From positions 1 through 41,520 of the forward strand of contig JARFTZ010000023.1 in NCBI GenBank assembly GCA_029289235.1: a DNA stretch of 41,520 bases. The letters run 5' to 3'. The notes under the pieces were generated by a model. That model ran no database searches, was not told the origin of the DNA, and saw only the letters and a list, made by a program, of their open reading frames with translations. Below are positions 9,955-25,738 of the stretch, piece by piece. The DNA is from Gammaproteobacteria bacterium. Its GTDB lineage: Bacteria > Pseudomonadota > Gammaproteobacteria > Burkholderiales > Rhodocyclaceae. Position 1 is the stretch's first letter; the number at the start of each line of letters is the position of its first letter. A program made the position numbers and the translations under genes.

Positions 9955-9966
9955 GAAAAACGAATA

Positions 9967-10851: not shown

Positions 10852-10859
10852 AAGAATCT

Positions 10860-10875: not shown

Positions 10876-10947
10876 CGGAATGGCTGTTCAATTTATGAAT
10901 CCGGGCGCTTAGAGTACGCCTCTTTCAGTCAGTAAGGAGAACCGGAC

Positions 10948-11457
10948 GTGGCGAAGCCCTATCCGCGCAGCTTTTCCCATATCGGCCTGTCGGTCACCGA
11001 TCTCGATGCGGCCGTCAAGTTTTACACCGAGGTCATGGGTTGGTATTTGATCATGGCGCCGACCACGATCACGGAAGATGATAGTGCCATCGGCGTGATG
11101 TGCACCGACGTTTTCGGAAAGAACTGGGGCTCGTTCCGCATTGCCCATCTTTCGACGGGAGATCGTGTCGGCGTGGAAATTTTCGAGTTCCGTAATGCCG
11201 TTCGCCCCGATGACAATTTTGAATACTGGAAAACCGGCGTTTTCCATTTCTGCGTGCAGGATCCCGATGTCGAGGGCATGGCCGCAAAAATCGTCGCGGC
11301 CGGCGGCAAGCAACGCATGCCCGTGCGCGAGTATTTCCCGGGAGAAAAGCCTTACCGCATGGTCTATATGGAAGACCCGTTCGGAAATATTCTTGAAATC
11401 TACAGCCACAGCTACGAACTGACCTATTCGGCGGGCGCGTACCAGCCGGGCCAGTAG
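10948..11457 (+). CDS. VOC-family (glyoxalase/extradiol dioxygenase-like) protein
   Basis: The 169-residue protein has the paired beta-alpha-beta-beta-beta modules of the vicinal-oxygen-chelate fold. The four expected metal ligands are visible: H11 in FSHIGLSV, a Glu in VEIFEF, a His in GVFHFCV and a Glu in FGNILEIYSH. Such proteins include glyoxalase I, fosfomycin-resistance enzymes and lactoylglutathione lyase-like proteins with unknown substrates. The GTG start at 10948 is supported by AAGGAGA seven bases upstream. It is the first gene of a + strand series (VOC, MDR reductase, PfpI, flavin reductase, SDR) divergent from a LysR regulator. A lyase or dioxygenase role in carbonyl detoxification fits the context but is not shown. 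Confidence 0.85.
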   Translation: MAKPYPRSFSHIGLSVTDLDAAVKFYTEVMGWYLIMAPTTITEDDSAIGVMCTDVFGKNWGSFRIAHLSTGDRVGVEIFEFRNAVRPDDNFEYWKTGVFHFCVQDPDVEGMAAKIVAAGGKQRMPVREYFPGEKPYRMVYMEDPFGNILEIYSHSYELTYSAGAYQPGQ

Positions 11458-11461
11458 GGCT

Positions 11462-12457: not shown

Positions 12458-12492
12458 TTCATTTTTCAAACTCTATTGTTAGAAATACTTAT

Positions 12493-13203
12493 ATGACTCC
12501 TGCTCTAAAAATCCTTGTTGTTCTGACATCTCATGCCATGGCTGGAAGTGCCAGTCATCCGACCGGTCTCTGGCTTGAAGAGTTCACCACGCCTTACTAC
12601 GCGTTCGTCGATGCGGGGGCAGAGGTGGATGTCGCGTCCATCCAGGGGGGGAAAGCCCCGATCGATCCGGGTTCGGTCCGTCCGGAAGGGAAAAACCCAC
12701 CCAGCGTCGAGCGTTTTCTTAAAGACCCGGTTGCTCGGGCCAAGATCGAGGCTTCGATGAAAATCGAAGTGCTGAAAGCGACCACCTACGACGCTGTCTT
12801 TCTGCCGGGTGGTCACGGCACGATGTGGGATCTACCGCAGAGCGAACCCCTTGCGAGGCTGTTGAGCGATGCGTGGGGAGAAGGAAAAGTGGTCGCCGCG
12901 GTTTGTCATGGGCCGGCCGGTTTGGTCAACGCCAAGGACGAGACCGGAAAAGCGTTGGTCACTGGTCGCCGCGTGGCGGCATTCAGCAACAGCGAGGAAG
13001 TCGCCGCAAACATGGACAAGCAGGTTCCGTTCGCGCTGGAATCCCGAATCCGCGATCTCGGTGCTCGTTACGAGAGCGGGCCCGATTTCAAGCCGTTCGC
13101 GGTGCGGGATGGCCGCCTTGTCACAGGACAGAACCCGGCGTCGTCGGAGAGGGTGGCGGAGTTGGTACTCGAAGCTGTCCGCGAAACGGCGCTCAAGCGA
13201 TGA
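12493..13203 (+). CDS. DJ-1/PfpI-family protein (Hsp31/glyoxalase III-like)
   Basis: The 236-residue protein belongs to the class I glutamine-amidotransferase-like DJ-1/PfpI superfamily. It has the nucleophile-elbow cysteine C138 in AAVCHGPAGLVN followed by H139, an early acidic residue in GLWLEEF (E29/E30) and the FLPGGHG loop (103-109). This arrangement is that of Hsp31/GLO-III-like proteins, which convert methylglyoxal to lactate without glutathione or act as protein deglycases and chaperones. I chose the ATG at 12493, where homology begins (KILVVLTSHAM); a GTG at 12454 would add 13 unrelated residues. Its location in a string of carbonyl/quinone enzymes supports a role against reactive aldehydes. 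Confidence 0.85.
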   Translation: MTPALKILVVLTSHAMAGSASHPTGLWLEEFTTPYYAFVDAGAEVDVASIQGGKAPIDPGSVRPEGKNPPSVERFLKDPVARAKIEASMKIEVLKATTYDAVFLPGGHGTMWDLPQSEPLARLLSDAWGEGKVVAAVCHGPAGLVNAKDETGKALVTGRRVAAFSNSEEVAANMDKQVPFALESRIRDLGARYESGPDFKPFAVRDGRLVTGQNPASSERVAELVLEAVRETALKR

Positions 13204-13272
13204 CCTGCCACGCCGTGTTTTCCCGGATTGCATAACCCCCTTTTGTTGATAGCACAGGATCAGGAATCGTTC

Positions 13273-14373
13273 ATGTCAGCTCTGTTTTCTCCGTTCAAAC
13301 TCAAATCCGTCATTCTGAAAAACCGCATTGCCGTACCGCCGATGTGCCAGTACAGCGCCACCGACGGTCTGGCCAACGACTGGCATCTCGGCCACTACGC
13401 CAGCCTCGGGCGGGGCGGTGCCGGGCTGGTGATCGTCGAGGCGACCGGTGTCGCGCCGGAGGGACGCATCAGTCCCGCCTGCCTGGGGTTGTGGAATGAC
13501 GACCAGGCTGCCGGGCTGGCCCAGGTTGCTGCTGCAATAAAAGCGGGTGGCGCCGTGCCCGGCATCCAGATCGGGCACGCCGGGCGCAAGGCCAGCGCCA
13601 ATGTTCCGTGGGAAGGCGATGACCATATCCCCGAGAGCGATCCGCGTGCATGGGAGACGATCTCGCCGTCGCCGGTCGCCTTCGGCGCCAACTTGCCGCG
13701 AGTGCCGCGAGAGATGACGCTGGCCGACATCGAGCGGGTGAAAGCTGATTTCGTTGCCGCGGCGCGTCGTGCGCGGGAGGCCGGTTTCGAATGGCTGGAG
13801 TTGCATTTCGCGCATGGCTATCTGGCGCAGAGCTTCTTCTCGCCACATGCCAACAAGCGCACTGATGCCTACGGTGGCGACTTCGCCGGGCGCGGCCGTT
13901 TCCTGCTGGAAACGCTGTCTGCCGTGCGCGAAGTCTGGCCGGAGAATCTGCCGCTGACTGCACGCTTCGGTGTCATCGAGTACGACGGGAGCGACGAGGA
14001 GACGCTGGCCGAGTCGATCGAGCTGATCCGGCAATTCCGCGCGCGCGGGCTGGATTTCGTCAACGTCAGCGTCAATTTCTCGACGCCGGATGCCAATGTT
14101 CCGTGGGGGCCGGCCTTCCTGTCGCCGGTGGCGGCGCGGGTAAAGCGCGAGGCAAAATTGCCTGTCGCCTCGTCGTGGAACATCGATACGCCCGCACTGG
14201 CGGAACACACGGTCGCGACAGGCCAACTGGACGTGGTGATGATCGGCCGCGTGCACTTGGCCAACCCGTACTGGACGCACGAGGCGGCGCATGCGCTGCA
14301 TGTCGATCGCCCCGATTGGGTGCTGCCTGCTCCTTACGCGCACTGGCTGGAGCGGTACAAGCGGAATGCCTGA
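13273..14373 (+). CDS. Old yellow enzyme-family NADH:flavin oxidoreductase, XenA/YqjM type
   Basis: This is an FMN-dependent TIM-barrel enoate reductase of 366 residues. The thermophilic-like/XenA class marks are clear: C25 in PPMCQYSA, which tunes the flavin potential, H178 and H181 in LHFAHGYL, which bind the substrate carbonyl or nitro group, and Y183. The numbering is the same as that known for Pseudomonas XenA. Such enzymes reduce activated alkenes, quinones, nitroesters and other electrophiles with NAD(P)H. The ATG at 13273 has a CAGGA site seven bases upstream; a longer frame from 13228 has no such support. It follows the PfpI gene by 69 bases. It likely acts as an electrophile reductase in this cluster. 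Confidence 0.9.
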   Translation: MSALFSPFKLKSVILKNRIAVPPMCQYSATDGLANDWHLGHYASLGRGGAGLVIVEATGVAPEGRISPACLGLWNDDQAAGLAQVAAAIKAGGAVPGIQIGHAGRKASANVPWEGDDHIPESDPRAWETISPSPVAFGANLPRVPREMTLADIERVKADFVAAARRAREAGFEWLELHFAHGYLAQSFFSPHANKRTDAYGGDFAGRGRFLLETLSAVREVWPENLPLTARFGVIEYDGSDEETLAESIELIRQFRARGLDFVNVSVNFSTPDANVPWGPAFLSPVAARVKREAKLPVASSWNIDTPALAEHTVATGQLDVVMIGRVHLANPYWTHEAAHALHVDRPDWVLPAPYAHWLERYKRNA

Positions 14374-14449
14374 GCGCTGCGCCGCGGTAGTATGAATCGC
14401 GGCGCGCGCCGCAGGCGGGCCTTTTTTACGACTGAACTGGAGAAAGCGG

Positions 14450-15229
14450 ATGGATCTCGGGTTGCGGGGGAAAACAGCACTGGTGTGTGCAGCGAGTCGC
14501 GGACTGGGGCGCGGTTGTGCCGAAGCGCTCGCTGCGGAAGGCGTGAAACTGGTCATCGCGGCGCGCCGCGAGGCCTTGCTGGAGGAGGCGGCAAGGGAGA
14601 TCCGGGCGCGGTTTGGCGTCGAGGTGATTCCGGTTGCTTGCGACATCACGGCGGCGGAGGGGCGCGCACTCGCGCTGGCGGCGTGCCCGCAGCCGGATAT
14701 CCTGGTGACGAACGCCGGCGGGCCGCCTGCCGGTGATTTCAGGAACTTCTCCCAAGCGGATTGGCATCGCGCCCTCGATGCCAACATGCTGACGCCGGTC
14801 GAGCTGATCAAGGCGACGATCGACGGGATGATAGGCCGCGGCTTTGGCCGCATCATCAACATCACCAGTGCGGCGGTGAAGATGCCGATCGGCATCCTCG
14901 GCCTGTCCAACGGGGCGCGCGCCGGCTTGACGGGCTTTGTCGCCGGCCTCGCGCGCGAGGTCGCACCGCACGGGGTGACGATCAACAACCTGCTGCCGGG
15001 GATGTTCGATACCGACCGCCTGGCTTTTCTCACCCAGGCTCAAGCTACCGCAGCCAGTCTGCGTGTCGATGAAATCACCGCGCGGCAACTGGCCGGCATC
15101 CCTGCGGGGCGTTTCGGGCGTGCCGGCGAGTTCGGCGCGGCGTGCGCGTTCCTGTGCAGCGCCCACGCCGGCTACATCACCGGTCAGAACCTGCTGATCG
15201 ACGGCGGAGCGTACCCCGGAGTGTTCTAG
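14450..15229 (+). CDS. SDR-family protein with non-canonical catalytic motif
   Basis: The 259-residue protein has the short-chain dehydrogenase fold: TALVCAASRGLGRG (9-22), NAGG (88-91), NITS (137-140) and a C-terminal GQNLLIDGGAYPG. The catalytic Tyr-xxx-Lys is absent. At the position 13 after S140 there is S153, and R157 stands where Lys belongs, in GLSNGARAGL. The cofactor motif is CAASRGLG, not TGxxxGIG. This matches a recognised SDR subgroup (FabG-like proteins with imperfect NAD motif and tetrad), whose activity is not well defined. It follows the flavin reductase by 76 bases with a weak ribosome binding site and may be the last gene of the operon; a hairpin follows. It should not be labelled FabG. 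Confidence 0.85.
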   Translation: MDLGLRGKTALVCAASRGLGRGCAEALAAEGVKLVIAARREALLEEAAREIRARFGVEVIPVACDITAAEGRALALAACPQPDILVTNAGGPPAGDFRNFSQADWHRALDANMLTPVELIKATIDGMIGRGFGRIINITSAAVKMPIGILGLSNGARAGLTGFVAGLAREVAPHGVTINNLLPGMFDTDRLAFLTQAQATAASLRVDEITARQLAGIPAGRFGRAGEFGAACAFLCSAHAGYITGQNLLIDGGAYPGVF

Positions 15230-15242
15230 AAAAGAGGTTCCC

Positions 15243-15281
15243 CGAGGGGCGTATTCCATCTTTTGATGAATAAACCCCTCG
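15243..15281 (+). terminator. Long hairpin after the SDR gene, probable terminator
   Basis: The arms CGAGGGG (15243-15249) and CCCCTCG (15275-15281) close a stem that continues as TATTC..GAATA and ATC..GAT around a TTTT loop, with two mismatches and one bulge. It begins 13 bases after the SDR stop. The tail is ACTTTCTTCG, only moderately T-rich, so termination is likely but not certain. Confidence 0.5.
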
Positions 15282-15299
15282 ACTTTCTTCGTTCGTGAA

Positions 15300-15314
15300 T
15301 GTAGTAACAATACA
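15300..15314. promoter_or_regulatory. Candidate RpiR-type operator upstream of the beta-propeller gene
   Basis: TGTAGTAACAATACA is a 15-base imperfect palindrome with TGTA/TACA arms. It fits the pattern TGTA-n-T-nnn-A-n-TACA known for HexR, an RpiR-family regulator. The palindrome before dctP (16917-16929) has the same internal pattern. A further TGTTGTAGTTA half-site lies at 15326-15336, almost identical to part of the 16744 palindrome. An RpiR gene is encoded in the same cluster (23455). Confidence 0.45.
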
Positions 15315-15428
15315 AAGCGGCAATTTGTTGTAGTTAGAATTCTTTCGGCTGTTCGGCAGTTCGCGCGGTTGGTGGAAGGTCGATGGCCATTTTGTGAGCA
15401 GCAAGTCCAAACCGAGAGGAGTCAAATC

Positions 15429-16646
15429 ATGTTCAAAAGATCTGCCTTGTGTCTGTCCGTCGCTGCCTGTCTGGCGGTGGTTCCCGTCGCGAGCATGGCC
15501 GCGCAACCGAAGCTCGAAGTCGTCGCCGAATGGAATCGGTTGGCGTACGACCTGGGCGATGCCGCAGCCGAAAAGGCGTACGACGACGCGCAAACGTGGA
15601 AAAAGGCTTTGCTGCACGGGGTCAAGGTTGATTCCAAGGGAACGATCTACGTCACTACGGCCCGCTGGGGCGGCAAGGAGGTGCCGGCAACGCTTAGCAA
15701 GCTGGTCAAGAAGGACGGGCAATGGAAACTCCAGCCGTTCCCCAGCAAGGAGATGAATGACGTTGCCAATCCGAAGGGGTTGAAGGCGGTCCTGGGTTTC
15801 GAGATCGACCGCAACGATGTGATGTGGATCCTCGACCAGGGGCACGTCGCGGGCGCGCCGTCCGCGCCGGGCGACGAGAAGCTGATCGGCTGGGATCTGA
15901 AGACCGGCAAAGAAGTGGCGCGCTACGAATTCAGCGAACAGGATTCGGACAGGAAGTGCTCGTTCCTCAACGACGTCGCGGTCGACAATGACAGCGGCTA
16001 TATCTACATCACCGACTCCGGGATTTTCTGCGATCCGTTGAAGGGCGGGCTCATCGTCTATGACGTCAAGAACAACAAGGCGAAGCGCGTGCTTTCGGCG
16101 CCGGAGTGGGTCAATGACGAAGCCTTTACCTTCAGGATTCACGGGCGGGATGTGCTGAAGGCCAAGGATGGCAAGCCCAATCCGATGCGCACCGGTGCCG
16201 ACGGCATCGCCTTGTCCGGCGACAAGAAGACCCTCTACTGGACGAACCTGACCGGCAACCGGTTGCTGAGCCTGCCGACGGAACTGCTCCGCGACTTTTC
16301 GAAGAGCGAGGATGAGGTCAAGAGCGCGGCCAAGGTGGTTTCTTCGCTGCCATCCAATACCGACGGGATGACCGCTGACCGGAAGAACAACCTGTACATG
16401 ACCGGATTGACGTTGAACGGCGTCATGAAGCGCGATGCGAAGAGCGGAAAAATCTCGACGTTTGCCAGCGACGAGGCGATTTCCTGGCCGGATACGCTGG
16501 GATGGGGGCCGAAAGGCGATCTGTATCTGGTCTCCAATCACCTGCACTTGTGGGTCGATGGCGACATGGACTTCGATCAGCCGAAGGTGCCGAATTTCCG
16601 GATCTACAAGATGAAAGTCGGCGCCACGCCTTACCTTGCAAAGTAA
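15429..16646 (+). CDS. Secreted royal-jelly/SMP-30-like beta-propeller protein
   Basis: The 405-residue protein has a Sec signal peptide (MFKRSALCLSVAACLAVVPV.., cleavage near residue 24 after SMA) and is therefore periplasmic. The mature part shows the features of the major royal jelly protein/yellow family (PF03022), often annotated as L-dopachrome tautomerase-related: MWILDQG, CSFLNDVAVD, YIYITDSGI, GADGIALSGDKKTLYWTNL and NTDGMTADRKNNLYMTG. These six-bladed propellers are related to SMP-30/gluconolactonases, and a sugar lactonase role is plausible beside a sugar-acid-like transporter, though no activity is proven for bacterial members. The ATG at 15429 has GAGAGGAG upstream. A candidate operator precedes it, and 394 bases separate it from dctP. 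Confidence 0.78.
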   Translation: MFKRSALCLSVAACLAVVPVASMAAQPKLEVVAEWNRLAYDLGDAAAEKAYDDAQTWKKALLHGVKVDSKGTIYVTTARWGGKEVPATLSKLVKKDGQWKLQPFPSKEMNDVANPKGLKAVLGFEIDRNDVMWILDQGHVAGAPSAPGDEKLIGWDLKTGKEVARYEFSEQDSDRKCSFLNDVAVDNDSGYIYITDSGIFCDPLKGGLIVYDVKNNKAKRVLSAPEWVNDEAFTFRIHGRDVLKAKDGKPNPMRTGADGIALSGDKKTLYWTNLTGNRLLSLPTELLRDFSKSEDEVKSAAKVVSSLPSNTDGMTADRKNNLYMTGLTLNGVMKRDAKSGKISTFASDEAISWPDTLGWGPKGDLYLVSNHLHLWVDGDMDFDQPKVPNFRIYKMKVGATPYLAK

Positions 16647-16743
16647 TCAAAGGTCATTGATGCGGCGAGTGGCGTGGGCGAGGAATCGGCGCGAAAAGAC
16701 GCCGGTTTCTCGCGGAGCGTTAGTTGTTGATGTTGTTTGTATA

Positions 16744-16761
16744 TGTTGTAGTGATACAACA
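16744..16761. promoter_or_regulatory. Palindrome TGTTGTA-GTGA-TACAACA
   Basis: A perfect 7-base-arm inverted repeat with a 4-base centre lies in the 394-base gap between the propeller gene and dctP. It contains TTGT-N6-ACAA, close to the TTGT/ACAA half-sites described for HexR-like RpiR proteins, and shares TGTTGTAGT with 15326-15334. The rest of 16647-16895 is AT-rich and shows no gene. Confidence 0.45.
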
Positions 16762-16895
16762 CGGTAGTGTCTTGTGTAGTGCAGTGGCGGCGGCTTGTGG
16801 GGTCGTCGGCAAAGACCGGCTCGTCATCGGCTGTTTCTGAAAATTCCTTTTTGTTTAATTGGTTGTGCGGCGACCGCGATTCTGTTTGAAGGTTG

Positions 16896-16929
16896 TTGAC
16901 ACGACGTGTTTACGGAGTAGTATTACTAC
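16896..16929 (+). promoter_or_regulatory. Promoter of the TRAP/catabolic operon with overlapping palindrome
   Basis: A -35 TTGACA (16896-16901) and a -10 TAGTAT (16918-16923) are 16 bases apart. The -10 is embedded in the perfect palindrome GTAGTA-T-TACTAC (16917-16929), an ideal place for a repressor. The pattern GTA-n-T-nnn-A-n-TAC is shared with 15300-15314. This predicts a leader of about 110 bases before the dctP start at 17041. The RpiR protein encoded downstream is the natural candidate repressor. Confidence 0.6.
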
Positions 16930-17040
16930 CGAATTGATCGGGTGTGTCGTTTCATGGCGCCCGCGGTTCGGGCGGTGTCTGAACTTCGTTTCCCTGTTTG
17001 TCGGGGTGACGGATATCCGGAAATAACTATGGAGGTTGTC

Positions 17041-18030
17041 ATGTTCAAGAAAGTATTGCTGGCGGCGTCATTGGCGGTTATCGGCGTTTCGTCTGCCGTG
17101 GCGCAGTCGGGCGACAAGATCGTGATCAAGATTGGCTACGGAACGGCCGGCGGTCCGATTCACGAGGGGGCGCTGGAGCTGAAGAAGCGGCTGCAGGCAG
17201 CGAACGGCCGGCTCGACGTGCAGGTCTTTCCCGGCGGCGCGCTGGGCTCCGAAGGAGAAATCATCGGCCAGTTGCAGACCGGCATGACCGACATGCTGCT
17301 GACGACGACCGGGCCGCTCGGGCAGCAGAACCCGATCTATTACGTGCTCGAAACACCGTACATCTTCATCAACTACGCGCAGGTGGACAAAGTGCTCGAT
17401 GGTCCGGCCGGAGACAAGCTCCTCAAGGGGCTGGAAGCGAAAGGCCTGGTCGGCTTGGCTTTCTGGGAAAACGGCTTCCGGGAAATGTCGAACAACGCCC
17501 GCCCGATCAAGGCCCCGGCGGACCTGAAGGGATTGAAGATGCGCACGCAGCAGAATCGCCTGCACATGAAGTACTTCTCCGATCTCGGTGCCAATCCCAC
17601 ACCGTTGCCTTTCACCGAAATCTACAACGCGCTGGCGACCAAGATGGTCGATGGGCAGGAGAACCCGCTCTCGCTGATCGCCACCAACAAGTTCTACGAG
17701 CAGCAAAAGTACGTATCCCTGACCGATCACGTCTATTCGTCGGTCCCGGTCTATTACTCGAAGTCGAAGTGGGACAAGTTGCCTGCCGACGTCCAGAAGC
17801 TGGTGAAAGATACGGTGTATGACATGCGCCTGTGGCAGCGCAAGCTCGGCCGCGACCAGCAGAAGGCGTACGTCGCCGAGATTTCCAAGAAGTCCGAGGT
17901 GCTTGAACTGACCGACGCCGAGAAGGCTGCGTTCCAGAAGGCCGCCGAGCCGGCATTCGAGTGGGCCAAGAAAGAATACGGCGCGGCGTACGAATCGACT
18001 CTCAAGGAAGTGCTCGAGGCGGCGAAGTAG
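17041..18030 (+). CDS. dctP: TRAP transporter solute-binding protein DctP
   Basis: The 329-residue periplasmic protein captures the substrate for the TRAP membrane subunits encoded next. It has a Sec signal peptide (MFKKVLLAASLAVIGVSSAVAQ, cleavage near 21) and the DctP-family fold. Family marks are GPIHEGALELKKRL, FPGGALGSEGEIIGQLQTG, ENGFREMSNNARPI and LKGLKMRTQQN, whose Arg usually salt-bridges the carboxylate of the ligand, and later MVDGQENPL. The ligand is therefore probably an organic or sugar acid. The ATG at 17041 has GGAGG upstream. It is the first gene of a long operon with dctQ, dctM, an FGGY kinase, a dehydrogenase and an aldolase. A strong hairpin lies between it and dctQ. Confidence 0.92.
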   Translation: MFKKVLLAASLAVIGVSSAVAQSGDKIVIKIGYGTAGGPIHEGALELKKRLQAANGRLDVQVFPGGALGSEGEIIGQLQTGMTDMLLTTTGPLGQQNPIYYVLETPYIFINYAQVDKVLDGPAGDKLLKGLEAKGLVGLAFWENGFREMSNNARPIKAPADLKGLKMRTQQNRLHMKYFSDLGANPTPLPFTEIYNALATKMVDGQENPLSLIATNKFYEQQKYVSLTDHVYSSVPVYYSKSKWDKLPADVQKLVKDTVYDMRLWQRKLGRDQQKAYVAEISKKSEVLELTDAEKAAFQKAAEPAFEWAKKEYGAAYESTLKEVLEAAK

Positions 18031-18048
18031 CCTCGCCGGGTTGTTCGG

Positions 18049-18076
18049 GCGATTGCCTCGGCAATGAGGCAATCGC
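18049..18076 (+). other. Intercistronic hairpin between dctP and dctQ
   Basis: GCGATTGCCTC (18049-18059) and GAGGCAATCGC (18066-18076) form a perfect 11-base-pair stem with a GGCAAT loop. No T-tract follows, so it is unlikely to be a full terminator. Its position 18 bases after the dctP stop suits a 3'-end stabiliser or partial attenuator that keeps binding-protein mRNA in excess over the permease. The second TRAP operon has an equivalent hairpin. Confidence 0.75.
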
Positions 18077-18112
18077 GCGGAGAGCGAGCAGGTCACTATG
18101 GAGAGGTCAGCA

Positions 18113-18598
18113 ATGAGCAGCATTAAGAACCCCAAGGGGCTTTCCGCTTGGCGGCGGATCGAAATAGCCATCTATGTGGTGCTGGGGATCGCCATGACGC
18201 TACTGATGTTCAGCAACGCGGTCATGCGTTACGTGTTCGATTCTTCGATCGTGTGGTCGGAAGAGGTCATTCGCTTGTTCTTTGTTCTGGCGATGTTCAT
18301 CGCCATTACCGGCGGTTTCATCCGCAACGAGCACATCGGTTTCGACAGCCTGGCCAAGCGGCCGGGCGCATTCAACCTCATTTTCAAGGCGGTTACCGGC
18401 CTGTGCCTGGTCGTTGTCGGCGGGCTGCTGGCCTACGAAGGCGGGAAATTTACCCTGATGACCGGTGATGTGCCGTTGCCGGCGACCAACATGCCGACGT
18501 CGCTGTTCATGTGGCCGGGCGTGGTTGCAGGCGGGGTGTGGGTAGTGATCGGCCTGGCGAAGATCGCCGCCATCTTTGTGCGGAAGGAATCGGCATGA
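18113..18598 (+). CDS. dctQ: TRAP transporter small permease DctQ
   Basis: The 161-residue inner-membrane protein has the four hydrophobic segments of DctQ (about 17-38, 52-70, 90-110 and 128-150). It also carries the family motif FSNAVMRYVFDSSIVWSEEV after the first helix, followed by GGFIRNEHIGFD. It works as the scaffold for the DctM transport subunit. I chose the ATG at 18113, with GGAGAGG six bases upstream; an in-frame ATG at 18098 lacks such a site. The stop overlaps the dctM start as ATGA, indicating translational coupling. Confidence 0.9.
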   Translation: MSSIKNPKGLSAWRRIEIAIYVVLGIAMTLLMFSNAVMRYVFDSSIVWSEEVIRLFFVLAMFIAITGGFIRNEHIGFDSLAKRPGAFNLIFKAVTGLCLVVVGGLLAYEGGKFTLMTGDVPLPATNMPTSLFMWPGVVAGGVWVVIGLAKIAAIFVRKESA

Positions 18599-19872
18599 GC
18601 ACGCTGTTCATATACCTGGCTATCTTCGGCGCGCTGTTCGCCGTCGGTTCGCCTGTAGTGTTGTCACTCGCCGCGGCGGCGGTGGCGATGCTCCTGATGA
18701 AGGGCGTTGACCTGATCGTCTTCGCCCAGAAATTCATGGTCTCGCTCGACAATTTCGGCCTGACCGCGATGTTCTTCTTCATTCTCGCCGGCGAGATCAT
18801 GAACGGCGGCGGCATGACGCGACGCATCATCGCCGCCGTGTCGAAGCTCGTGAAGGATATCCCCGGCGGGCTGGCGATCGTCACGGTCGTTTCCTGCGGG
18901 GTTTTCGCCGCGATCAACGGGTCGGCCATCGCCACGATGCTGGCGATCGGCGCGATCATGTATCCGGCGATGGTACGCCAGGGCTATTCGCCGGCCTTCG
19001 CCGCGGCGACGATCGGCGCCGGCGGCGTGGTCGGGCCGATCATTCCGCCGTCGATCCCGATGATCGTCTATGGCTCGACGACCGGTGATTCCGTGGCGGC
19101 GTTGTTCGCCGGCGGCTTCCTGATCGGGACCTTCATTCTTTCGATGGAAGTAGCGGTCGCCTACCTCGTCTCGAAGAAACGCGGCTGGGGTGTCAACGTG
19201 CCCGAGATCGATTTCGGCGACACCAAGGGCATCGCCTGGGCGCTGGTCTTTCCGGTGATGATCATGGTGAGCATCACCTCCGGGATGATGACGGCGACGG
19301 AAACCGCCTCGATGGCCGTGATGTATGCCTGGTTCGTCGGCTCCTTCATCTACCGGGAATTCAAGATCCGCGAGTTGCCGACAATGATGGCGACAGCGAT
19401 GAAAGGCTCGGCCGCGGTGATGGCCATCGTCGGCGCGGCGACGGCCGTCGGCTGGATTCTGACCTACGAGCGGGTGCCGCAGCAGGTCACCGAAACGCTG
19501 GTGGCGAACATCCAAGGGCCGTATGCGTTCATGGCGGTGTCGTTCGGCATCCTGTTCATCGTCGGGATGATCATGGACCTGACGCCGGCGATCCTGATCC
19601 TGACGCCGATCTTCATGGCGCCGGTCGCTGCATTCGGTGTCGATCCGATCTACTTCGGCGTCTTCTTCTGCGCCACGCTGACCGCAGGGCTGGTGACGCC
19701 GCCGGTGGGCACGCTGATCTATCTCGGCTGTTCGATGTCGGAAAGCCCGCTGAGCCAGGTCGTGAAGGAACTTGTCCCGTACATCGCGGCGATCTACATC
19801 GCGCTGTTCGTCTGCGTTGCCTTCCCGAATGTCATCACCTACGTGCCCAAGCAACTGCTCGGACTCTATTGA
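18595..19872 (+). CDS. dctM: TRAP transporter large permease DctM
   Basis: The 425-residue polytopic membrane protein is the sodium-coupled transport subunit of the TRAP system. It consists almost wholly of hydrophobic helices and shows DctM hallmarks: FFFILAGEIMNGGGMTRRI, GSAIATMLAIGAIMYPAM, IGAGGVVGPIIPPSIPMIVY, MTATETASMAVMYA, GMIMDLTPAILILTPIF and GLVTPPVGTLIYLG. The PPS and TPPVG turns belong to the pseudo-symmetric hairpins of the ion/substrate site. It starts inside the dctQ stop codon and is followed 13 bases later by the FGGY kinase gene, so uptake and the first catabolic step are coupled. The transported compound is unknown. Confidence 0.92.
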   Translation: MSTLFIYLAIFGALFAVGSPVVLSLAAAAVAMLLMKGVDLIVFAQKFMVSLDNFGLTAMFFFILAGEIMNGGGMTRRIIAAVSKLVKDIPGGLAIVTVVSCGVFAAINGSAIATMLAIGAIMYPAMVRQGYSPAFAAATIGAGGVVGPIIPPSIPMIVYGSTTGDSVAALFAGGFLIGTFILSMEVAVAYLVSKKRGWGVNVPEIDFGDTKGIAWALVFPVMIMVSITSGMMTATETASMAVMYAWFVGSFIYREFKIRELPTMMATAMKGSAAVMAIVGAATAVGWILTYERVPQQVTETLVANIQGPYAFMAVSFGILFIVGMIMDLTPAILILTPIFMAPVAAFGVDPIYFGVFFCATLTAGLVTPPVGTLIYLGCSMSESPLSQVVKELVPYIAAIYIALFVCVAFPNVITYVPKQLLGLY

Positions 19873-19885
19873 ATCGGAGCCGATG

Positions 19886-21415
19886 ATGAACTTGCCAATG
19901 CAAACCCATACCACCCGCGTGCTGGCGGTCGATATCGGCACCTCGTCCGTGCGGGCGATGGTGTACGACGCGACAGGGGCGATCCACGCCCGCGCGCAGA
20001 TCGCCTACTCGACGATCCGGCCGGCGCAGTACCTGGAAGAGCAGGATCCCGATCTGGTGCGTGCCGAGGTCTATCGCGCCATCGCCCAGTGCCTGCAACA
20101 GGACGGGGCGAAGCCGGGCGAAATCGAAGCGATCAGCTTCTCGTCGCAGATGTACGGCGTGATCGCTCTTGATCACGCCCATCGCCCGCTCACGCGCAAC
20201 ATCCTCTGGTCGGACGGGCGCTCGGAGCCGCAGGCCGAGGCAATGAAAAAGTCACTCGGTGCCCGATGGCTCTACCCGGACACCGGCTGTCCGATGAACT
20301 CGATCTTCCCGTTCGCCAAGCTGCTTTGGCTCAAGTGCGAACAGCCGGAACTATTCCGCGCCGCCGCCCGTTTCGTGTCGATCAAGGAGTACGTGACCTT
20401 CCCGCTCATCGGCGAATGGTCTATCGACTATTCGATGGCTTCGTCCACGGGGTTGCTCGACATCCACGCGCACCGCTGGAGCACGAAGGCGCTGGACTAC
20501 CTTGGTCTGCTGTCGGAGCGGCTGCCGTCGCCGGTATCAGGGACGCAGCGGTTCTCGCTGCAAGCCGGTTCCCCGCTGGCCGGCCTGGGTTTGCCGGAGG
20601 ACGTTGCCGTCTTCCTCGGCGGCGGCGATGGTCCGCTGGCCAATCTGGGTGCGGGAGCCTCCTTGCCGGGAACGGTCAACATCGACCTCGGTACCTCCGG
20701 GGCGGCACGCTGCCTGGCAGAGCGGCCGACTGTCGACGACGCAGCGAGCCTATGGTGCTTCTGCCTGACCGAGGAGCTTTGGGCAAGCGGCGGCATCGTG
20801 ACCAACGTCGGCAACGCCTACCAGTGGTTTGCCGGCAAGGTGCTCGGCACCGCCGGGATTGCCGAACGCGACGCCTACGCGATCATGGATCGTACGGCCG
20901 CCGAAATCGCGCCGGGGTGCGATGGGCTGTATTTCCTCCCCTATCTGCGCAAGGCGCGTTCGCCCTATTGGGACGGCCGGCTCAAGGGCACGATGTACGG
21001 ACTCACGGCCGATCATTCGGCGGCGCACATGGCGCGCGCCATGCTCGAAGCGGTTGCCTTCGACCTGCGGACGATCGTCGGCGTCATGCGCAAGAAGCTG
21101 ACCCTCGCGGAGCATGTCGTGCTGACCGGCGGGCTGGCGCGTTCGCCGATCATCCCGCAACTCCTCGCCGATGTCCTCGATGCCGAGATCCGGGTGCCGG
21201 CGGACGGCGAAGGATCGATCGCGGGCGCGGCGATTCTTGCACTGAACGGCCTGGGCGCCATCCCGGCGCTGTCTTTCATCGGCGAGGCGCGCACGGCGAA
21301 GACATACCGTCCCGACGCCGCGAATCGCGAACGCTACCACGCGGTTTACGCGGGCTACACCCGCCTCGTCGATCAGCTGCGAGGAATCAATCTCAATGAA
21401 AGGAACGTGTTGTGA
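19886..21415 (+). CDS. FGGY-family carbohydrate kinase
   Basis: The 509-residue cytoplasmic enzyme transfers phosphate from ATP to a sugar, sugar acid or polyol. The N-terminal phosphate-binding motif is VLAVDIGTSSVRAMVYD (12-28). Substrate-side motifs SFSSQMYGVIALD and ILWSDGRSE follow, and the second ATPase-fold lobe has NIDLGTSGAARC and VVLTGGLARSPIIPQLLADV. The tone of these motifs is closest to the gluconokinase/xylulokinase branch. Of two adjacent ATGs (19883, 19886), the second is six bases from GGAG and is preferred. The stop overlaps the next gene's GTG by four bases. With the dehydrogenase and aldolase it forms the core of a catabolic pathway whose substrate is not determined by sequence. 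Confidence 0.85.
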   Translation: MNLPMQTHTTRVLAVDIGTSSVRAMVYDATGAIHARAQIAYSTIRPAQYLEEQDPDLVRAEVYRAIAQCLQQDGAKPGEIEAISFSSQMYGVIALDHAHRPLTRNILWSDGRSEPQAEAMKKSLGARWLYPDTGCPMNSIFPFAKLLWLKCEQPELFRAAARFVSIKEYVTFPLIGEWSIDYSMASSTGLLDIHAHRWSTKALDYLGLLSERLPSPVSGTQRFSLQAGSPLAGLGLPEDVAVFLGGGDGPLANLGAGASLPGTVNIDLGTSGAARCLAERPTVDDAASLWCFCLTEELWASGGIVTNVGNAYQWFAGKVLGTAGIAERDAYAIMDRTAAEIAPGCDGLYFLPYLRKARSPYWDGRLKGTMYGLTADHSAAHMARAMLEAVAFDLRTIVGVMRKKLTLAEHVVLTGGLARSPIIPQLLADVLDAEIRVPADGEGSIAGAAILALNGLGAIPALSFIGEARTAKTYRPDAANRERYHAVYAGYTRLVDQLRGINLNERNVL

Positions 21416-22392
21416 AGGTTCTGGTGACCTCCAAGTCATTCGGCCGCGTTGCGCCCGATGCGCTTGAGCTGCTCAAGGAAAATGGCATCGAGATCGTCCG
21501 CGGCTCGCGGCCCTCGATGAACGCTGCCGAAATCGCCACCGAAATCGCCGGGTGCGACGCGCTCGTCGTCGGCAACGACACGGTCGATGCAGGCGTGTTC
21601 GCCGCCGCCGATCGCCTGCAAGTCGTGCATATGCACGGGACCGGCCTGGATGCGATCGATGTTGCTGCGGCGACAGAAAACGGCGTGCTGGTGGCCAACG
21701 CGCCGGGCGCCAACCGCAACGCTGTGGCCGAACTGACCGTCGCGCTGATGCTGGTCGCGGCGCGATCGATCGACAAGCACATCGAGATCCTCAAGGCCGG
21801 GCGCTGGGAGCGCACGGCAGGGCATGAGGTCTCCGGCAAGACCCTCGGCGTCATCGGCCTCGGCAACATCGGCCAGCGCATCGTCGAGCTGCTCTCCGGT
21901 TTCAACATGGGCGTCATCGGCTTTGACGTCTATCCCGACCGCGAATGGGCGGAGCGCGCTGCCGTTGCCCTGGCGCAATCGCCCGACGAGGTGTTTGCCG
22001 AAGCCGACTTCGTTGTTCTTGCGCTCTCGCTGAACGACAAGACCCGCAACTTCGTCGACGCCCGCCGTCTCGGCCTGATGAAGCCCAATGCCTATCTGAT
22101 CAATACGGCACGCGGCGGTCTGGTCGATGACGAGGCCCTGTGCGTGGCCTTGCGCGAAAAAAGGCTTGCCGGCGCAGCCATCGACGTGTTCGACCCGGAA
22201 CCGCTGTCACCCGATTCGCCCTTGCGCACCTCGGGTGCGACGCTGACGCCGCACCTGGCGGCGACGTCGGTCGAATCCGCCGGCAACGTCTCACGAATTG
22301 TCGCGCGCAATCTCATCGACGTGCTCCTGCACGGCCGGTCGGAGTGCGCCGTCAACCCCGGTGCGCTGGCGCGCCGCATAAGAAAAAAATGA
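21412..22392 (+). CDS. D-2-hydroxyacid dehydrogenase (SerA/GhrB-like)
   Basis: The 326-residue cytoplasmic enzyme interconverts a D-2-hydroxyacid and a 2-oxoacid with NAD(P). It has the Rossmann motif GLGNIGQR (149-156) followed by D172 at the second strand end (FDVY), which favours NAD. The catalytic triad is R234 in NTARGG, E263 in DPEP and H281 in LTPHLAATS. The GTG start overlaps the kinase stop as GTGA and has AAAGGA seven bases upstream, so it is translationally coupled to the kinase. In context it could act on the phosphorylated sugar acid, like 2-ketogluconate-6-phosphate reductase or phosphoglycerate dehydrogenase-like enzymes; this is inference. Confidence 0.87.
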   Translation: MKVLVTSKSFGRVAPDALELLKENGIEIVRGSRPSMNAAEIATEIAGCDALVVGNDTVDAGVFAAADRLQVVHMHGTGLDAIDVAAATENGVLVANAPGANRNAVAELTVALMLVAARSIDKHIEILKAGRWERTAGHEVSGKTLGVIGLGNIGQRIVELLSGFNMGVIGFDVYPDREWAERAAVALAQSPDEVFAEADFVVLALSLNDKTRNFVDARRLGLMKPNAYLINTARGGLVDDEALCVALREKRLAGAAIDVFDPEPLSPDSPLRTSGATLTPHLAATSVESAGNVSRIVARNLIDVLLHGRSECAVNPGALARRIRKK

Positions 22393-22443
22393 TCTAGCCA
22401 GTTCCCTCCCTCCCACAACTTGTCTTTTTGAAAAGGATGAATC

Positions 22444-23385
22444 ATGACAATCCAGGGCTCGCTCGTCCCTAACATCACCATTTTCGACGCGTCCGGCAAC
22501 ATCGACGCAGCCAAAACCCGCTGGCACATGGACTGGATTTTTTCCAAGGGTGTCGACGGTCTCTTCCTGACCGGATCGTACGGCGCCGGTCCGCTGATGA
22601 GCACCGAGGAGCGCGTTTCGGTGTTCAAGATGGCGCGCCAGTCGGCTGACGGCTTCAAGAACAAGGTGCTGTTGCCGCACGTCGGCTGCATCGACACCAA
22701 GAACGCCGTCGAACTGGCCCAGGCCGCCGAGAAGATCGGCGTCGACGCCATCGGCGCCGTCCCGCCGTTCTACTACAAGCACACCGACGAGGTGGTCATC
22801 GAGTACTACAAGGCGATCATCGGCGCGGTGAAGCTGCCCGTGTATGCCTACAACAACCCGGAAACCTCGCGCTACACGTTCAACCTCAAGACGATCAAGA
22901 CGCTGCAGGAATACGGCCTCGCCGGCATGAAGGACAGCCCGCTGTCGATCGGCCTGGTCTCTCAGGTCGCCTACGGCGCACAGGAAGCCGGCAAGGACTT
23001 CCAGCTGATCATCGGCACCTCCACCGGCTGGCTGCCGCTGGTGCACATGGGTGTCAAGGCGGCGATCGCCGGGATCAACAACTGGGCGCCGGAAATCATG
23101 ACCGAACTGGTCCGTGCCACCTTCGCCGGCGAGTGGGACCGTGCGCGCAAGGCCTACCTGGTGATGATGGATCTGTCGGCCAAGCTGCACTTCACCGATT
23201 CGACGATCGCCTCGCACATGGCGCTGTACGCGCGCGGCTTCGACGCCGGCTTCCCGCGCAAGCCGATGATCATGCCGGGCTTCGACAATCCGAAGTATCG
23301 TGAGCTGCGTACCATCCTCGAAAAGGGCTTCGCCGAACTGGATCTGCCGTTCGAGACCGGCAGCTTCAAGGTGCCGGGGCTGTAA
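22444..23385 (+). CDS. DapA/NAL-family class I aldolase (dihydrodipicolinate synthase-like)
   Basis: The 313-residue TIM-barrel enzyme forms a Schiff base with a 2-oxoacid. Lys163 in GLAGMKDSP is the Schiff-base lysine, and Tyr136 in VYAYNNPE is the conserved catalytic tyrosine. The pyruvate-carboxylate loop is GSYGAG (44-49) where true DapA has GTTGE, so this is not the lysine-biosynthetic enzyme. Related proteins cleave 2-keto-3-deoxy-sugar acids or similar compounds to pyruvate and an aldehyde. The ATG has AAGGA seven bases upstream. It ends the TRAP-kinase-dehydrogenase series and is followed by a GC-rich hairpin and an RpiR regulator gene, so it probably catalyses the last, carbon-splitting step of that pathway. 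Confidence 0.86.
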   Translation: MTIQGSLVPNITIFDASGNIDAAKTRWHMDWIFSKGVDGLFLTGSYGAGPLMSTEERVSVFKMARQSADGFKNKVLLPHVGCIDTKNAVELAQAAEKIGVDAIGAVPPFYYKHTDEVVIEYYKAIIGAVKLPVYAYNNPETSRYTFNLKTIKTLQEYGLAGMKDSPLSIGLVSQVAYGAQEAGKDFQLIIGTSTGWLPLVHMGVKAAIAGINNWAPEIMTELVRATFAGEWDRARKAYLVMMDLSAKLHFTDSTIASHMALYARGFDAGFPRKPMIMPGFDNPKYRELRTILEKGFAELDLPFETGSFKVPGL

Positions 23386-23402
23386 GGCCGTTCAGGCCGT
23401 TT

Positions 23403-23433
23403 CGGCACGGGGCGCGCTGGCGGCCCCGTGCCG
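23403..23433 (+). terminator. Strong GC hairpin between aldolase and RpiR genes
   Basis: CGGCACGGGGC (23403-23413) and GCCCCGTGCCG (23423-23433) form a perfect 11-base-pair stem with a nine-base loop, 17 bases after the aldolase stop. There is no T-tract, so it may be an imperfect terminator or an mRNA-stabilising structure. A GATAAT -10-like element follows at 23441. Confidence 0.5.
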
Positions 23434-23454
23434 GATCGGGGATAATCGCGGCCT

Positions 23455-24297
23455 ATGGTGCACCAAGTGAATTTCATAACCGAAAAGTACGCCGACCTGC
23501 GCAAGTCCGAGGTGAAGGTCGCCGAGTACGTCTTGCAGAAGGCGGACGAGGTCATTCACTTTTCGGTGAGCCAGCTCGCCGAACAGGCGAAGGTCAGCGA
23601 TCCCACCGTGATCCGCTTCTGCCGCGCCCTGGGGTTCAAGGGCTTCCAGGATTTCAAGATCCACCTGGCGCAGAGCATCATTCCGCCGGTGCGCACCATT
23701 CATGAGTCGATGAATGAGCAGGAGGAAGCGCCCGAACTCGTCCGCAAGGTCTTCGCGGCGAACCAGGACGCGATCCAGAGTACCCTGGGCACCCTCGATT
23801 TCGCGACGGTGCAGAAGGCCATCGAGGATCTGTCCCGCGCGGACAAGATCATCTTCCACGGGCTGGCCGGTTCCGCAGCGGTGGCGATGGACGCGCATCA
23901 CAAGTTCTTCCGTATCGGCATTCCCTGCGAGTGGTACAGCGATACGCACATGGCGATCATGGCCGGGGCGATGATGAAGCCCGGGCAGGTATTTGTCGCC
24001 ATTTCCCATTCCGGTTCGACGCACGACGTCATCGAATCGGTCCAGGCGGCGAAGAACGCCGGGGCGACGACGATCGGCATCGTCAGTTACGCCAAGTCGC
24101 CGCTGTCGAAGGTGGTGACGCATACCTTGCTGGTCGGATCGTCGGAAACCGGTTTCCGCTTCGAGCCGATGGCCTCGCGCATCGCGCAACTCTGCGTGAT
24201 CGACGTCCTCTCCGTCGGTGTTTCCCTGCTGCGCAGCGATCAGGTCATCTCCAACCTGAACAAGTCGCGGGCGGCGATCGCCAACAAACGTTATTGA
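23455..24297 (+). CDS. RpiR-family transcriptional regulator (HTH + SIS)
   Basis: The 280-residue protein has an N-terminal HTH_6 domain (about 1-77) with SVSQLAEQAKVSDPTVIRFC and ALGFKGFQDFK, and a SIS phosphosugar-binding domain (about 125-255) with FHGLAGSAAVAMDAH and AISHSGSTHDVIE, where the Ser/Thr loop binds sugar phosphates. Such regulators, for example HexR, sense a phosphorylated pathway intermediate. Its place at the end of the kinase/aldolase operon makes it the likely local regulator, with the palindromes at 15300 and 16917 as candidate sites. A GATAAT element at 23441-23446 lies only eight bases before the ATG, so a transcript from it would be almost leaderless. Confidence 0.9.
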   Translation: MVHQVNFITEKYADLRKSEVKVAEYVLQKADEVIHFSVSQLAEQAKVSDPTVIRFCRALGFKGFQDFKIHLAQSIIPPVRTIHESMNEQEEAPELVRKVFAANQDAIQSTLGTLDFATVQKAIEDLSRADKIIFHGLAGSAAVAMDAHHKFFRIGIPCEWYSDTHMAIMAGAMMKPGQVFVAISHSGSTHDVIESVQAAKNAGATTIGIVSYAKSPLSKVVTHTLLVGSSETGFRFEPMASRIAQLCVIDVLSVGVSLLRSDQVISNLNKSRAAIANKRY

Positions 24298-24357
24298 CCT
24301 GGCTACGTGTCTTGCCCGCGGGCGGCAGGCCTCTTTCCCCTTTTGTCTTGTTTTTCC

Positions 24358-25005
24358 ATGCATAGAGATATTCGCGCCGTAATTTTCGATAGTGACGGGA
24401 CGCTCGTTGACAGCGAGGTTCCTGGGATGGACGCGCTCCATGAAATGGCTGTCGCCGCCGGCTTGACGCTGAGCCGCGCGGAGGCGCACGCGCGTTTTCG
24501 CGGTGGCCGCATGGCGGATATCGCCAACTGGATCGGGGCGCAGGTCGAGGATAAGCCCGAGGATTTCGAGGCCGAATTTACCCGGCAGTACCGGGCTACC
24601 ATTGCGCAGCGGTTCAGGGAAAATCTCAGGGAAATCCCCGGGGCGTTCGATTTGCTGAGTCGCCTGGAAATCCCGTTCGGTGTCGCGACCAACGGCCCGC
24701 GGGAAAAGGTGTTGCTTACCCTGGAACTGACCGGTCTGCTGCCACTGGTGGGTGACCGGATCTTCAGTGCCTACGACGAGGGCAGTTTCAAGCCGGACCC
24801 GGGGTTGTTCCTCGCTGCAGCCCGGGGCTTGGGGCATGAGCCGCAGCATTGTGCGGTAGTGGAAGACAGCATCCCCGGGCTTGTCGCCGGCGTGGCCGCA
24901 GGCATGCATGTTTTTTCGTTGCACGGTCGAGATGGCGTGCCAGACGAAATCGCAGCGAAAGTCGTTTTCATCGGCTCGCTGTCGCATCTGAACGAGTATC
25001 TCTGA
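24358..25005 (+). CDS. HAD-superfamily sugar-phosphate phosphatase, YieH-like
   Basis: The 215-residue enzyme has all four HAD motifs: D11 and D13 in FDSDGTLVDSE, TNGP (111-114), K145 in FKPDPG, and ED (169-170) in VVEDSIPG. A helical cap (about 20-85) places it in the beta-phosphoglucomutase-like group. The segments VATNGP and FSAYDEGSFKPDPGLFLAAA are strikingly similar to E. coli YieH, which removes phosphate from 6-phosphogluconate. It begins 60 bases after the RpiR stop on the same strand. It may balance the kinase by dephosphorylating an accumulating intermediate, as such phosphatases do in other sugar operons. A mutase role is less likely because the context has no beta-sugar phosphorylase. 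Confidence 0.82.
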   Translation: MHRDIRAVIFDSDGTLVDSEVPGMDALHEMAVAAGLTLSRAEAHARFRGGRMADIANWIGAQVEDKPEDFEAEFTRQYRATIAQRFRENLREIPGAFDLLSRLEIPFGVATNGPREKVLLTLELTGLLPLVGDRIFSAYDEGSFKPDPGLFLAAARGLGHEPQHCAVVEDSIPGLVAGVAAGMHVFSLHGRDGVPDEIAAKVVFIGSLSHLNEYL

Positions 25006-25168: not shown

Positions 25169-25738
25169 ATGTCCATCAAGTCCGACAAGTGGATTCGCCG
25201 CATGGCGGAGCAGCACGGCATGATCGAGCCGTTCGAGCCCGACCTGGTGCGCGAGATCGCCGGCCAGAAGATCGTGTCATACGGGACGTCGAGCTATGGC
25301 TACGATATCCGCTGCGCCGACGAGTTCCGGGTGTTCACCAACATCAACTCGACGATCGTCGATCCGAAAGCGTTCGATCCCCAGTCGTTCGTCGAGGTCT
25401 CGGGCAAGGGGTATTGCGTGATTCCGCCGAATTCCTTTGCCCTGGCGCGTACCGTCGAGTATTTCCGCATTCCGCGCAGCGTGCTGACCGTGTGTCTCGG
25501 CAAGAGCACCTACGCCCGCTGCGGCATCATCGTCAACGTCACGCCATTCGAACCCGAGTGGGAAGGGTACGTGACGCTGGAGTTCTCCAACACCACGCCG
25601 CTGCCGGCAAAGATCTACGCCGGCGAAGGCTGTGCCCAGGTGCTGTTCTTCGAGTCCGACGAGATCTGCGAGACCTCGTACAAGGATCGCGGCGGCAAGT
25701 ACCAGGGGCAGGTCGGCGTGACGCTGCCGAAAATCTGA
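25169..25738 (+). CDS. dcd: dCTP deaminase
   Basis: Dcd converts dCTP to dUTP, which is then hydrolysed to dUMP for thymidylate synthesis. The 189-residue length is that of the homotrimeric bacterial enzyme. The active-site signature [20 protein letters not shown] (111-130) gives the substrate-binding S113 and R117, and the catalytic glutamate is E138 in TLEFS. The N-terminal [19 protein letters not shown] is typical. A TAAAAT -10-like element (25127-25132) lies about 37 bases upstream of the ATG. The gene is not part of the sugar operon. thyA and folA, which use its product downstream, lie within 8 kb. An intrinsic terminator-like hairpin follows. Confidence 0.95.

Follow-up and report, generated by a model that had tools for sequence, protein, structure and literature searches.

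What acid does a nine-gene cluster in a Rhodocyclaceae genome take up, and do its kinase, dehydrogenase and aldolase share an intermediate? The cluster occupies positions 15,300–25,005 of the window, the whole stretch of 41,520 nucleotides (nt) analysed here, which is contig C23 (JARFTZ010000023.1) of a genome of 3.81 Mb in 63 contigs, 95% complete (GCA_029289235.1). An original prediction, made from the letters alone, had read it as a self-contained pathway in which a periplasmic lactonase-like step precedes the import of an uncommon sugar acid through a tripartite ATP-independent periplasmic (TRAP) transporter, phosphorylation, redox conversion and aldol cleavage. Our analysis partly supports this pathway: the linkage of the genes and the operator and regulator data speak for it, while the lactonase step is weak. 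We propose, with a probability of a little over one in three, that the cluster is an inducible catabolic module for a six-carbon sugar acid with no hydroxyl at C3, a 3-deoxyhexonate, which would be converted to 2-keto-3-deoxy-6-phosphogluconate (KDPG) or its C4 epimer and split by aldol cleavage, the phosphorylated 2-oxo acid serving as inducer.

Each of the nine genes is an open + strand frame and matches its named Pfam family, which bears out the families, positions, order and strand given in the original prediction. A TRAP transporter, whose three subunits are adjacent and each above the Pfam gathering score, comes with the solute-binding protein DctP (17041–18030, 292.9 bits), the small permease DctQ (18113–18598, 69.3 bits) and the large permease DctM (18595–19872, 320.9 bits). 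It is followed by a gluconokinase-like FGGY kinase (19886–21415), a phosphoglycerate-dehydrogenase-like D-2-hydroxyacid dehydrogenase (21412–22392; Pfam 2-Hacid_dh_C, 185 bits), a DapA-family class I aldolase (22444–23385), a regulator with HTH and SIS domains of the RpiR family and RccR/HexR type (23455–24297) and a HAD phosphatase (24358–25005). The overlaps noticed earlier between dctQ and dctM and between the kinase and dehydrogenase genes are both present, 4 nt each. At the other end, a secreted beta-propeller of the MRJP/SGL type (15429–16646) is separated from dctP by 394 bases.

A scan of a named genome collection found 18 loci with relatives of the aldolase, 64–90% identical to it, a lower bound since the scan requires an exact 8-residue peptide match. 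The loci, most of them metagenome-assembled, are assigned by their record titles to Accumulibacter, Propionivibrio, Xanthobacteraceae, Spirochaetes and relatives, Dehalococcoidia, Anaerolineales, Chloroflexi, Planctomycetes, Deltaproteobacteria and unclassified bacteria; there is a same-genus match in genome G052, and other close relatives bear the names Candidatus Accumulibacter and Propionivibrio. The window proteins were compared with these loci by tblastn, and counts refer to the 18 loci plus the window; L029 and L010, which share the contig of L013 to judge by its length of 19803 bases, were excluded. Contig ends cut L013 and L025 inside the cluster, L022 ends about 100 bases past the aldolase gene, so that its regulator cannot be judged, and L017 and L028 hold runs of N, where residues were counted only if readable. 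The order dctP–dctQ–dctM–kinase–dehydrogenase–aldolase is complete in nine of the 19 (the window, L011, L012, L015, L016, L017, L022, L026 and L028, the dctP of L028 being partly masked) and, by record title, is found in at least three phyla; the gene set is thus no chance string, and the order recurs in other genomes as the original prediction had proposed to check. Its single self-contained set stands for these six genes and less well for the ends, since the propeller gene is probably a separate unit and the HAD gene is in place in only three loci (the window, L011 and L012).

The kinase gene is linked to the aldolase gene in all 17 loci where the contig is intact at this point, L013 and L025 being truncated, and the dehydrogenase gene in 15 of 19, being missing from L021, L024 and L027 and cut off in L013. 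Kinase and aldolase are thus the common denominator of the loci, which suggests a shared intermediate. Identity tables and trees divide the dehydrogenases into two main types, that of the window and that of L018, L019, L020, L023 and L025, and the kinases fall into three, namely the window type, which includes L020, L024 and L027, that of L018, L019 and L023, and that of L021. Note that the loci are mutually related, so that co-occurrence counts are not independent events.

The aldolase is rare and patchily distributed. At E 1e-60 it matches in two of the 150 genomes drawn from the family and in one of 369 from the class, the source genome included; a profile of the 19 aldolase sequences at E 1e-80 matches one of 301 genomes of the L027 phylum and one of 198 of the L017 phylum, in both cases the centre genome, in draws that left out other named members (for instance L018, L019, L024 and L023, L025, L028). 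Given the high identity and the patchy occurrence, the gene set is best read as having spread between phyla by horizontal transfer. A search of plasmids gave zero matches at E 1e-40.

The second line of evidence concerns regulation. According to the RccR passages of PMC5489143, RccR recognizes a 15-bp site, TGTAGT/ACTACA, and binds it less well in the presence of KDPG. The cluster contains three putative operators on the + strand: (i) the imperfect TGTAGTAACAATACA at 15300–15314, about 115 bases upstream of the propeller gene and with two mismatches to TGTAGTANTACTACA; (ii) a perfect inverted repeat, TGTTGTA-GTGA-TACAACA, at 16744–16761 upstream of dctP (the site at 16747 in the genome scan); (iii) AGTAGTATTACTACC at 16916–16930, which overlaps the −10-like element of dctP and has counterparts at −126, −126 and −98 in L011, L012 and L014. 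This element belongs to a sigma-70-like promoter (TTGACA-16-TAGTAT, 16896–16923, +), the sole promoter-like site on either strand between 15150 and 25250; shuffled sequences average 2.3, so that alone it is not significant. The propeller gene probably forms a unit apart from dctP and the genes that follow, because the 394-base gap contains this promoter-like site and two of the operator-like sites. The 15300 site, which is absent from the output of a palindrome scan that admitted at most one mismatch, suggests that the propeller gene is under the same control as the dctP operon.

That palindrome scan, run upstream of the first genes of the loci, returned TGTAGTAATACTACA from both L023 and L025 and similar sequences from other loci; it also gave numerous palindromes of no relation to it, about as many as shuffling predicts, and artefacts in the N runs of L028. 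With up to two mismatches, TGTARTANTAYTACA occurs upstream of transporter or aldolase genes in the window, L011, L012, L014, L015, L016, L017, L023, L025 and L028, whereas shuffles keeping base content only give 0.0–0.3 per locus. Operator-like site and regulator co-occur: the site is found in nine of the ten loci with a regulator orthologue, the tenth, L013, beginning at a contig end 96 bases before the aldolase gene, whereas all seven loci that lack an orthologue also lack the site (L018, L019, L020, L021, L024, L026 and L027). The truncated L025 has the site, and its contig ends before a regulator gene could appear. With up to three mismatches, the window holds four matches, two of them overlapping, versus 0.04 expected. 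The whole genome has six sites with up to two mismatches, three of them here (15300, 16747 and 16916) and the others on contigs C7, C12 and C60; since a control with the reversed pattern gives 10 hits per strand genome-wide, this total is at chance level and the clustering is the telling part. The idea of a global RccR regulon in this genome is weakened, three of the six sites being clustered at this locus.

The regulator itself (240.5 bits versus a cut-off of 296 for the HexR subfamily model NF008451) has 8ju9 and 8k3b as its nearest solved proteins, at about 180 bits (179.9 for 8k3b). The structure 8k3b is an RccR/KDPG complex in which, according to the RccR passages of PMC10810197, nine residues form hydrogen bonds with KDPG. 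Seven of these are identical in the window protein (S139, H148, R152, H164, S183, S185 and R277) and the remaining two are conservatively replaced (S188T and K270R); the residues were transferred through the printed alignment, except R277, which lies just beyond it and was mapped by ungapped extension. Among eight other full-length orthologues (L011–L016, L023 and L028, that of L017 being masked), five keep the window residues or have S at S188, and the deviations are T at S185 in L013, K at R277 in L015 and K at R152 in L023. These residues suggest that the protein senses KDPG or a compound much like it.

In the mechanism that we propose, DctP would bind the acid, possibly formed from a precursor by the propeller, and DctQM would carry it into the cell. 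The FGGY kinase would then phosphorylate the 6-hydroxyl, the dehydrogenase would oxidize the (2R)-hydroxyl to yield KDPG or its C4 epimer, and the aldolase would form a Schiff base with this product and release pyruvate and glyceraldehyde 3-phosphate. The RccR-like regulator would occupy the 15-bp operators, which lie ahead of the propeller gene and across the dctP promoter, and would bind less well as KDPG accumulates. Because KDPG would arise directly from C2 oxidation of a 3-deoxy acid, no dehydratase would be needed. Gene content, conserved linkage, the co-occurrence of operator-like sites and regulator, the kept sensor residues and the conserved Lys and Tyr of the aldolase are what the computations provide; from them, we infer the order of the steps, their regiochemistry, the substrate, for which a 3-deoxyhexonate is our best guess, and the direction of regulation. 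Erythronate was discarded as a substrate by reasoning, as 4-phosphoerythronate oxidized at C2 has no C3–C4 aldol bond for cleavage.

The aldolase has the Schiff-base Lys163 and the catalytic Tyr136 of the DapA superfamily, both conserved, and the GSYGAG loop that had been read from the sequence is present at residues 44–49. Its best NCBIfam model is that of the KDG/KDPG aldolase (NF040954), at 130.7 bits versus a cut-off of 390, and comparison of structures gives tied matches to dihydrodipicolinate synthase and N-acetylneuraminate lyase, with no hint of a substrate. The archaeal KDG/KDPG aldolase and YagE of Escherichia coli share its fold and family and differ in score and in the GSYGAG loop, identity to the solved chains compared being 22–27%. 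The kinase belongs to the FGGY family and its best match in the PDB is 3gbt, a gluconate kinase; we do not claim a gluconokinase equivalog, its score on TIGR01314 being 345.9 bits versus a cut-off of 648.55. The dehydrogenase reaches 267.5 bits on TIGR01327, below the cut-off of 454. Its identification as the housekeeping phosphoglycerate dehydrogenase was rejected, since this model gives higher scores to two further genes elsewhere in the genome, none of them above the cut-off. As regards the transporter, R147, R168 and N208 of DctP are invariant in eight aligned orthologue sequences and match, by a constant offset, the carboxylate-binding Arg152, Arg173 and Asn213 (4P47 numbering) described in the TRAP sections of PMC11668362. 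Sialic acid, 3-deoxy-D-manno-octulosonate (KDO) and ascorbate (2,3-diketogulonate) operons were rejected or weakened, since the cluster showed no other recognizable genes of these pathways and the matches of DctQ and DctM to YiaM and YiaN are far below cut-off.

What the carrier genomes otherwise contain bears on the proposal as well. In a survey of 18 genomes, mostly drafts and with completeness known for the source genome only, the 6-phosphogluconate dehydratase gene edd is above cut-off in none, compared with two of 14 controls. KDPG may then arise only through this module in these genomes and, to judge by the edd model, would not come from the classical route. An MR/MLE protein follows the aldolase and kinase in two Dehalococcoidia loci (L018, 4535–5764; L019, 7148–8329; 93% mutually identical); the best model of the L018 protein is galactonate dehydratase, at 159 bits versus a cut-off of 311, and its best solved relative is 2oo6. 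This gene tips the balance towards 3-deoxy substrates.

Several observations weigh against a 3-deoxyhexonate pathway through KDPG. (i) For the kinase, dehydrogenase and aldolase, as for the regulator and the phosphatase, the score stays under the curated cut-off of the closest equivalog or subfamily model, and Tyr46 of the aldolase occupies what we take to be the position of a Thr in aldolases acting on 2-keto-3-deoxygluconate (KDG). (ii) Kinase and aldolase occur without a linked dehydrogenase in L021, L024 and L027, and the kinase frame of L021 spans the N-terminal domain only. (iii) The MR/MLE clue is below the model cut-off and comes in effect from one lineage, and L022, where the place of the regulator is cut off, has zero operator-like sites. 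(iv) MurR and 4ivn, the latter presumably NanR, share the serines (or Thr) and H164 with the RccR pocket, but both have F or Y at H148, and at R152 MurR has K and 4ivn has R (the K270 and R277 positions fall outside the printed alignments of these two), and the distant L020 regulator, whose locus has no operator, carries L at H148 and S, R, H, S, S, S, K and K elsewhere; because its contacts are partly shared in this way, the KDPG pocket is suggestive, not proof. (v) The RccR passages of PMC10810197 name no C3 or C4 contact, so that the sensor may not separate KDPG from a 3-hydroxy analogue. (vi) Weaker matches to the edd model, 182–278 bits versus a cut-off of 708, are present in 14 of the 18 genomes and are possibly other dehydratases of the superfamily. 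(vii) The KDPG/KHG aldolase family (Eda-type) is represented in 16 of the 18, at 213–239 bits in five and 98 bits in the source genome; many of them would gain little from another KDPG aldolase, which argues against a simple need for one and favours an analogue of KDPG.

Some of these points fit a different scheme, in which KDG itself is imported, then phosphorylated by the FGGY enzyme and cleaved as KDPG by the DapA protein, the dehydrogenase serving only to salvage 3-deoxygluconate (reduced KDG) or to balance redox. The best solved relative of DctP, 7bbr (212 bits), has been reported with bound 2-keto-3-deoxy-D-gluconate in the ligand sections of PMC11668362, other DctP relatives there having pantoate, erythronate, galacturonate or glucuronate; that paper cautions that ligands which co-purify are not necessarily the natural ones. 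The 7bbr ligand counts in favour of the 3-deoxyhexonate pathway as well. The three loci lacking a linked dehydrogenase and the predicted binding of KDPG by the regulator are also in line with KDG import. The dehydrogenase is nevertheless kept in 15 of the 19 loci, and in two types, which speaks for a necessary step. In addition, KDG kinases known to us belong to the PfkB family, and we regard this scheme as unlikely.

The similarity of the kinase to gluconokinases points elsewhere. Gluconate could be phosphorylated and then oxidized to 2-keto-6-phosphogluconate, or 2-ketogluconate phosphorylated directly, after which the aldolase would produce hydroxypyruvate and glyceraldehyde 3-phosphate and a hydroxyacid dehydrogenase might reduce hydroxypyruvate to glycerate. 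Such a route would agree with the lack of edd above cut-off, with an Eda-type protein in 16 of the 18 genomes, which makes another substrate for the DapA-family aldolase reasonable, and with the two dehydrogenases found in L026 and, beside another TRAP system, in L014; a secreted gluconolactonase-like protein would fit too. Against it, 6-phosphogluconate dehydrogenase is present in 15 of the 18 genomes, the source genome included, and provides an existing outlet for 6-phosphogluconate, the MR/MLE gene of L018 and L019 points to 3-deoxy substrates, and we know of no DapA enzyme that uses a hydroxypyruvate donor. We judge this route, too, to be improbable. The second D-2-hydroxyacid dehydrogenases of L014 (6426–7400) and L026 (11424–12374) are 36% identical to each other and lie outside both main types.

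Less probable still is a pathway in which the aldolase acts first, cleaving the unphosphorylated 2-oxo acid made by the dehydrogenase, the FGGY kinase being left to act on the aldehyde or ketose product or on a side substrate. FGGY kinases do act mostly on ketoses and polyols, the kinase of the loci is variable, with three types, and the aldolase strongly conserved, and L024 also has a Dak1 kinase and an epimerase-like protein; the regulator residues for a phosphate and a 2-oxo carboxylate, however, fit a phosphorylated 2-oxo acid. Finally, that the cluster is a TRAP operon travelling with unrelated enzymes that share no intermediate is very unlikely, for although the transporter or dehydrogenase is swapped or missing in some loci, the same order recurs across phyla in a rare and patchy distribution, and operator-like sites precede both the propeller gene and dctP.

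Set beside known systems, the 3-deoxyhexonate pathway resembles the lower branch of the Entner–Doudoroff pathway of Pseudomonas under HexR/RccR control, with an RpiR-type regulator, an RccR-like 15-bp site, a KDPG pocket and the predicted cleavage of a 2-keto-3-deoxy-6-phosphohexonate; it differs in that edd was not found above cut-off, the sites are clustered at one place and a DapA-family aldolase replaces Eda. The kinase of the Pseudomonas kgu operon is of a different family from that of the window. As described in the operon sections of PMC5902321, the 2-ketogluconate operon kguE/K/T/D likewise combines a transporter, a kinase and a reductase acting on 6-phospho-2-ketohexonate with a regulator of its own, which unlike that of the window set is the LacI-type PtxS, and those sections name no DapA-family aldolase. 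The sugar-acid TRAP system CxaPQM of Advenella (in the sections of PMC11668362 and PMC5812351 devoted to it) provides the closest solved solute-binding protein and has sugar-acid ligands; the comparison covers that protein.

What is new here is the regulator's kinship to RccR, with its KDPG contacts and the co-occurring operator. More tentatively, the module may represent a dehydratase-free entry to the lower branch of the Entner–Doudoroff pathway, mobile between phyla, in which a 3-deoxyhexonate such as metasaccharinate, a degradation product of glucose, would be turned into KDPG or its epimer, cleaved by the DapA-family enzyme and monitored by the RccR-like sensor; cleavage of 2-keto-6-phosphogluconate to hydroxypyruvate is an equally placed alternative to such an entry. 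Literature searches with narrow word combinations and partial coverage returned no account of such an operon, which is weak evidence of absence, and for metasaccharinic acid and bacterial degradation they returned only a paper on metasaccharinic acid in dialysis fluids (PMC13280894). An otherwise anonymous sugar-acid TRAP operon receives a concrete pathway hypothesis and a named inducer. If the substrate is indeed a 3-deoxyhexonate, the module would offer a way to use compounds formed when sugars break down chemically, one that we did not find described in the search made, and would illustrate how a mobile operon recruited a KDPG-type sensor where the genome has no recognized edd. Guessing from isolate and record names, we would place the carriers in sludge reactors, sediments and animal guts.

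The propeller, a secreted protein of 405 residues, had been described as royal-jelly/SMP-30-like and linked to a periplasmic lactonase-like step. It belongs to the MRJP/SGL family, its nearest folds are MRJP/Yellow proteins and the position of the first SGL Glu is H or A where read. Its candidate metal ligands, N181, D258, D312 and E125, picked with what we take to be the SGL metal-ligand set, are invariant in six sequences. MRJP/Yellow proteins and the cyanobacterial 2qe8 are alike in fold and sequence, and the present propeller is set apart by its linkage to a sugar-acid operon, which gives context to bacterial royal-jelly/Yellow-type proteins; a literature search for bacterial MRJP/Yellow members with a lactonase and an operon found none. 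It may be a lactonase or an isomerase, the lactonase step being weak. The phosphatase had been called YieH-like; it is of the HAD family, and its nearest NCBIfam model is 6-phosphogluconate phosphatase (NF007854), at 136.2 bits, below the cut-off of 211. It is possibly an overflow valve.

Some of the loci have further genes around the cluster. In L024, an Anaerolineales metagenome-assembled genome (MAG), kinase and aldolase are accompanied (924–13165) by a psicose-3-epimerase-like protein, Dak1, a protein of the diol/glycerol-dehydratase type and another FGGY kinase, which is 57% identical to that of L021. In L027, a Chloroflexi MAG, propeller, kinase and aldolase are followed (8435–18160) by a member of the acetoacetate-decarboxylase family and, in place of TRAP, by an ABC sugar transporter, and in L017 (Sphaerochaetaceae) a KDPG/KHG-type aldolase with an IclR regulator adjoins the cluster (11854–13635). 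Pfam scans of the flanking open reading frames (ORFs) returned unrelated neighbours and several frames without a family, which are probably spurious.

In the window, the frame after the HAD gene (25169–25738) resembles dcd by eye, and a short frame at 958–1770 (+), perhaps a vestige close to the end of the contig, starts like the N-terminus of a phage-type integrase and then degenerates into noise. In the ORF list, frames at 30077–32270 (+) resemble 6-phosphogluconolactonase (pgl) and glucose-6-phosphate dehydrogenase (zwf), with no edd or eda seen alongside. The same list shows a second TRAP system on the − strand (37995–40958), with a DctM-like frame at 37995–39485 and a DctP-like frame at 39873–40958, the gene of the latter being 68% identical in DNA to the first dctP over 217 bases.

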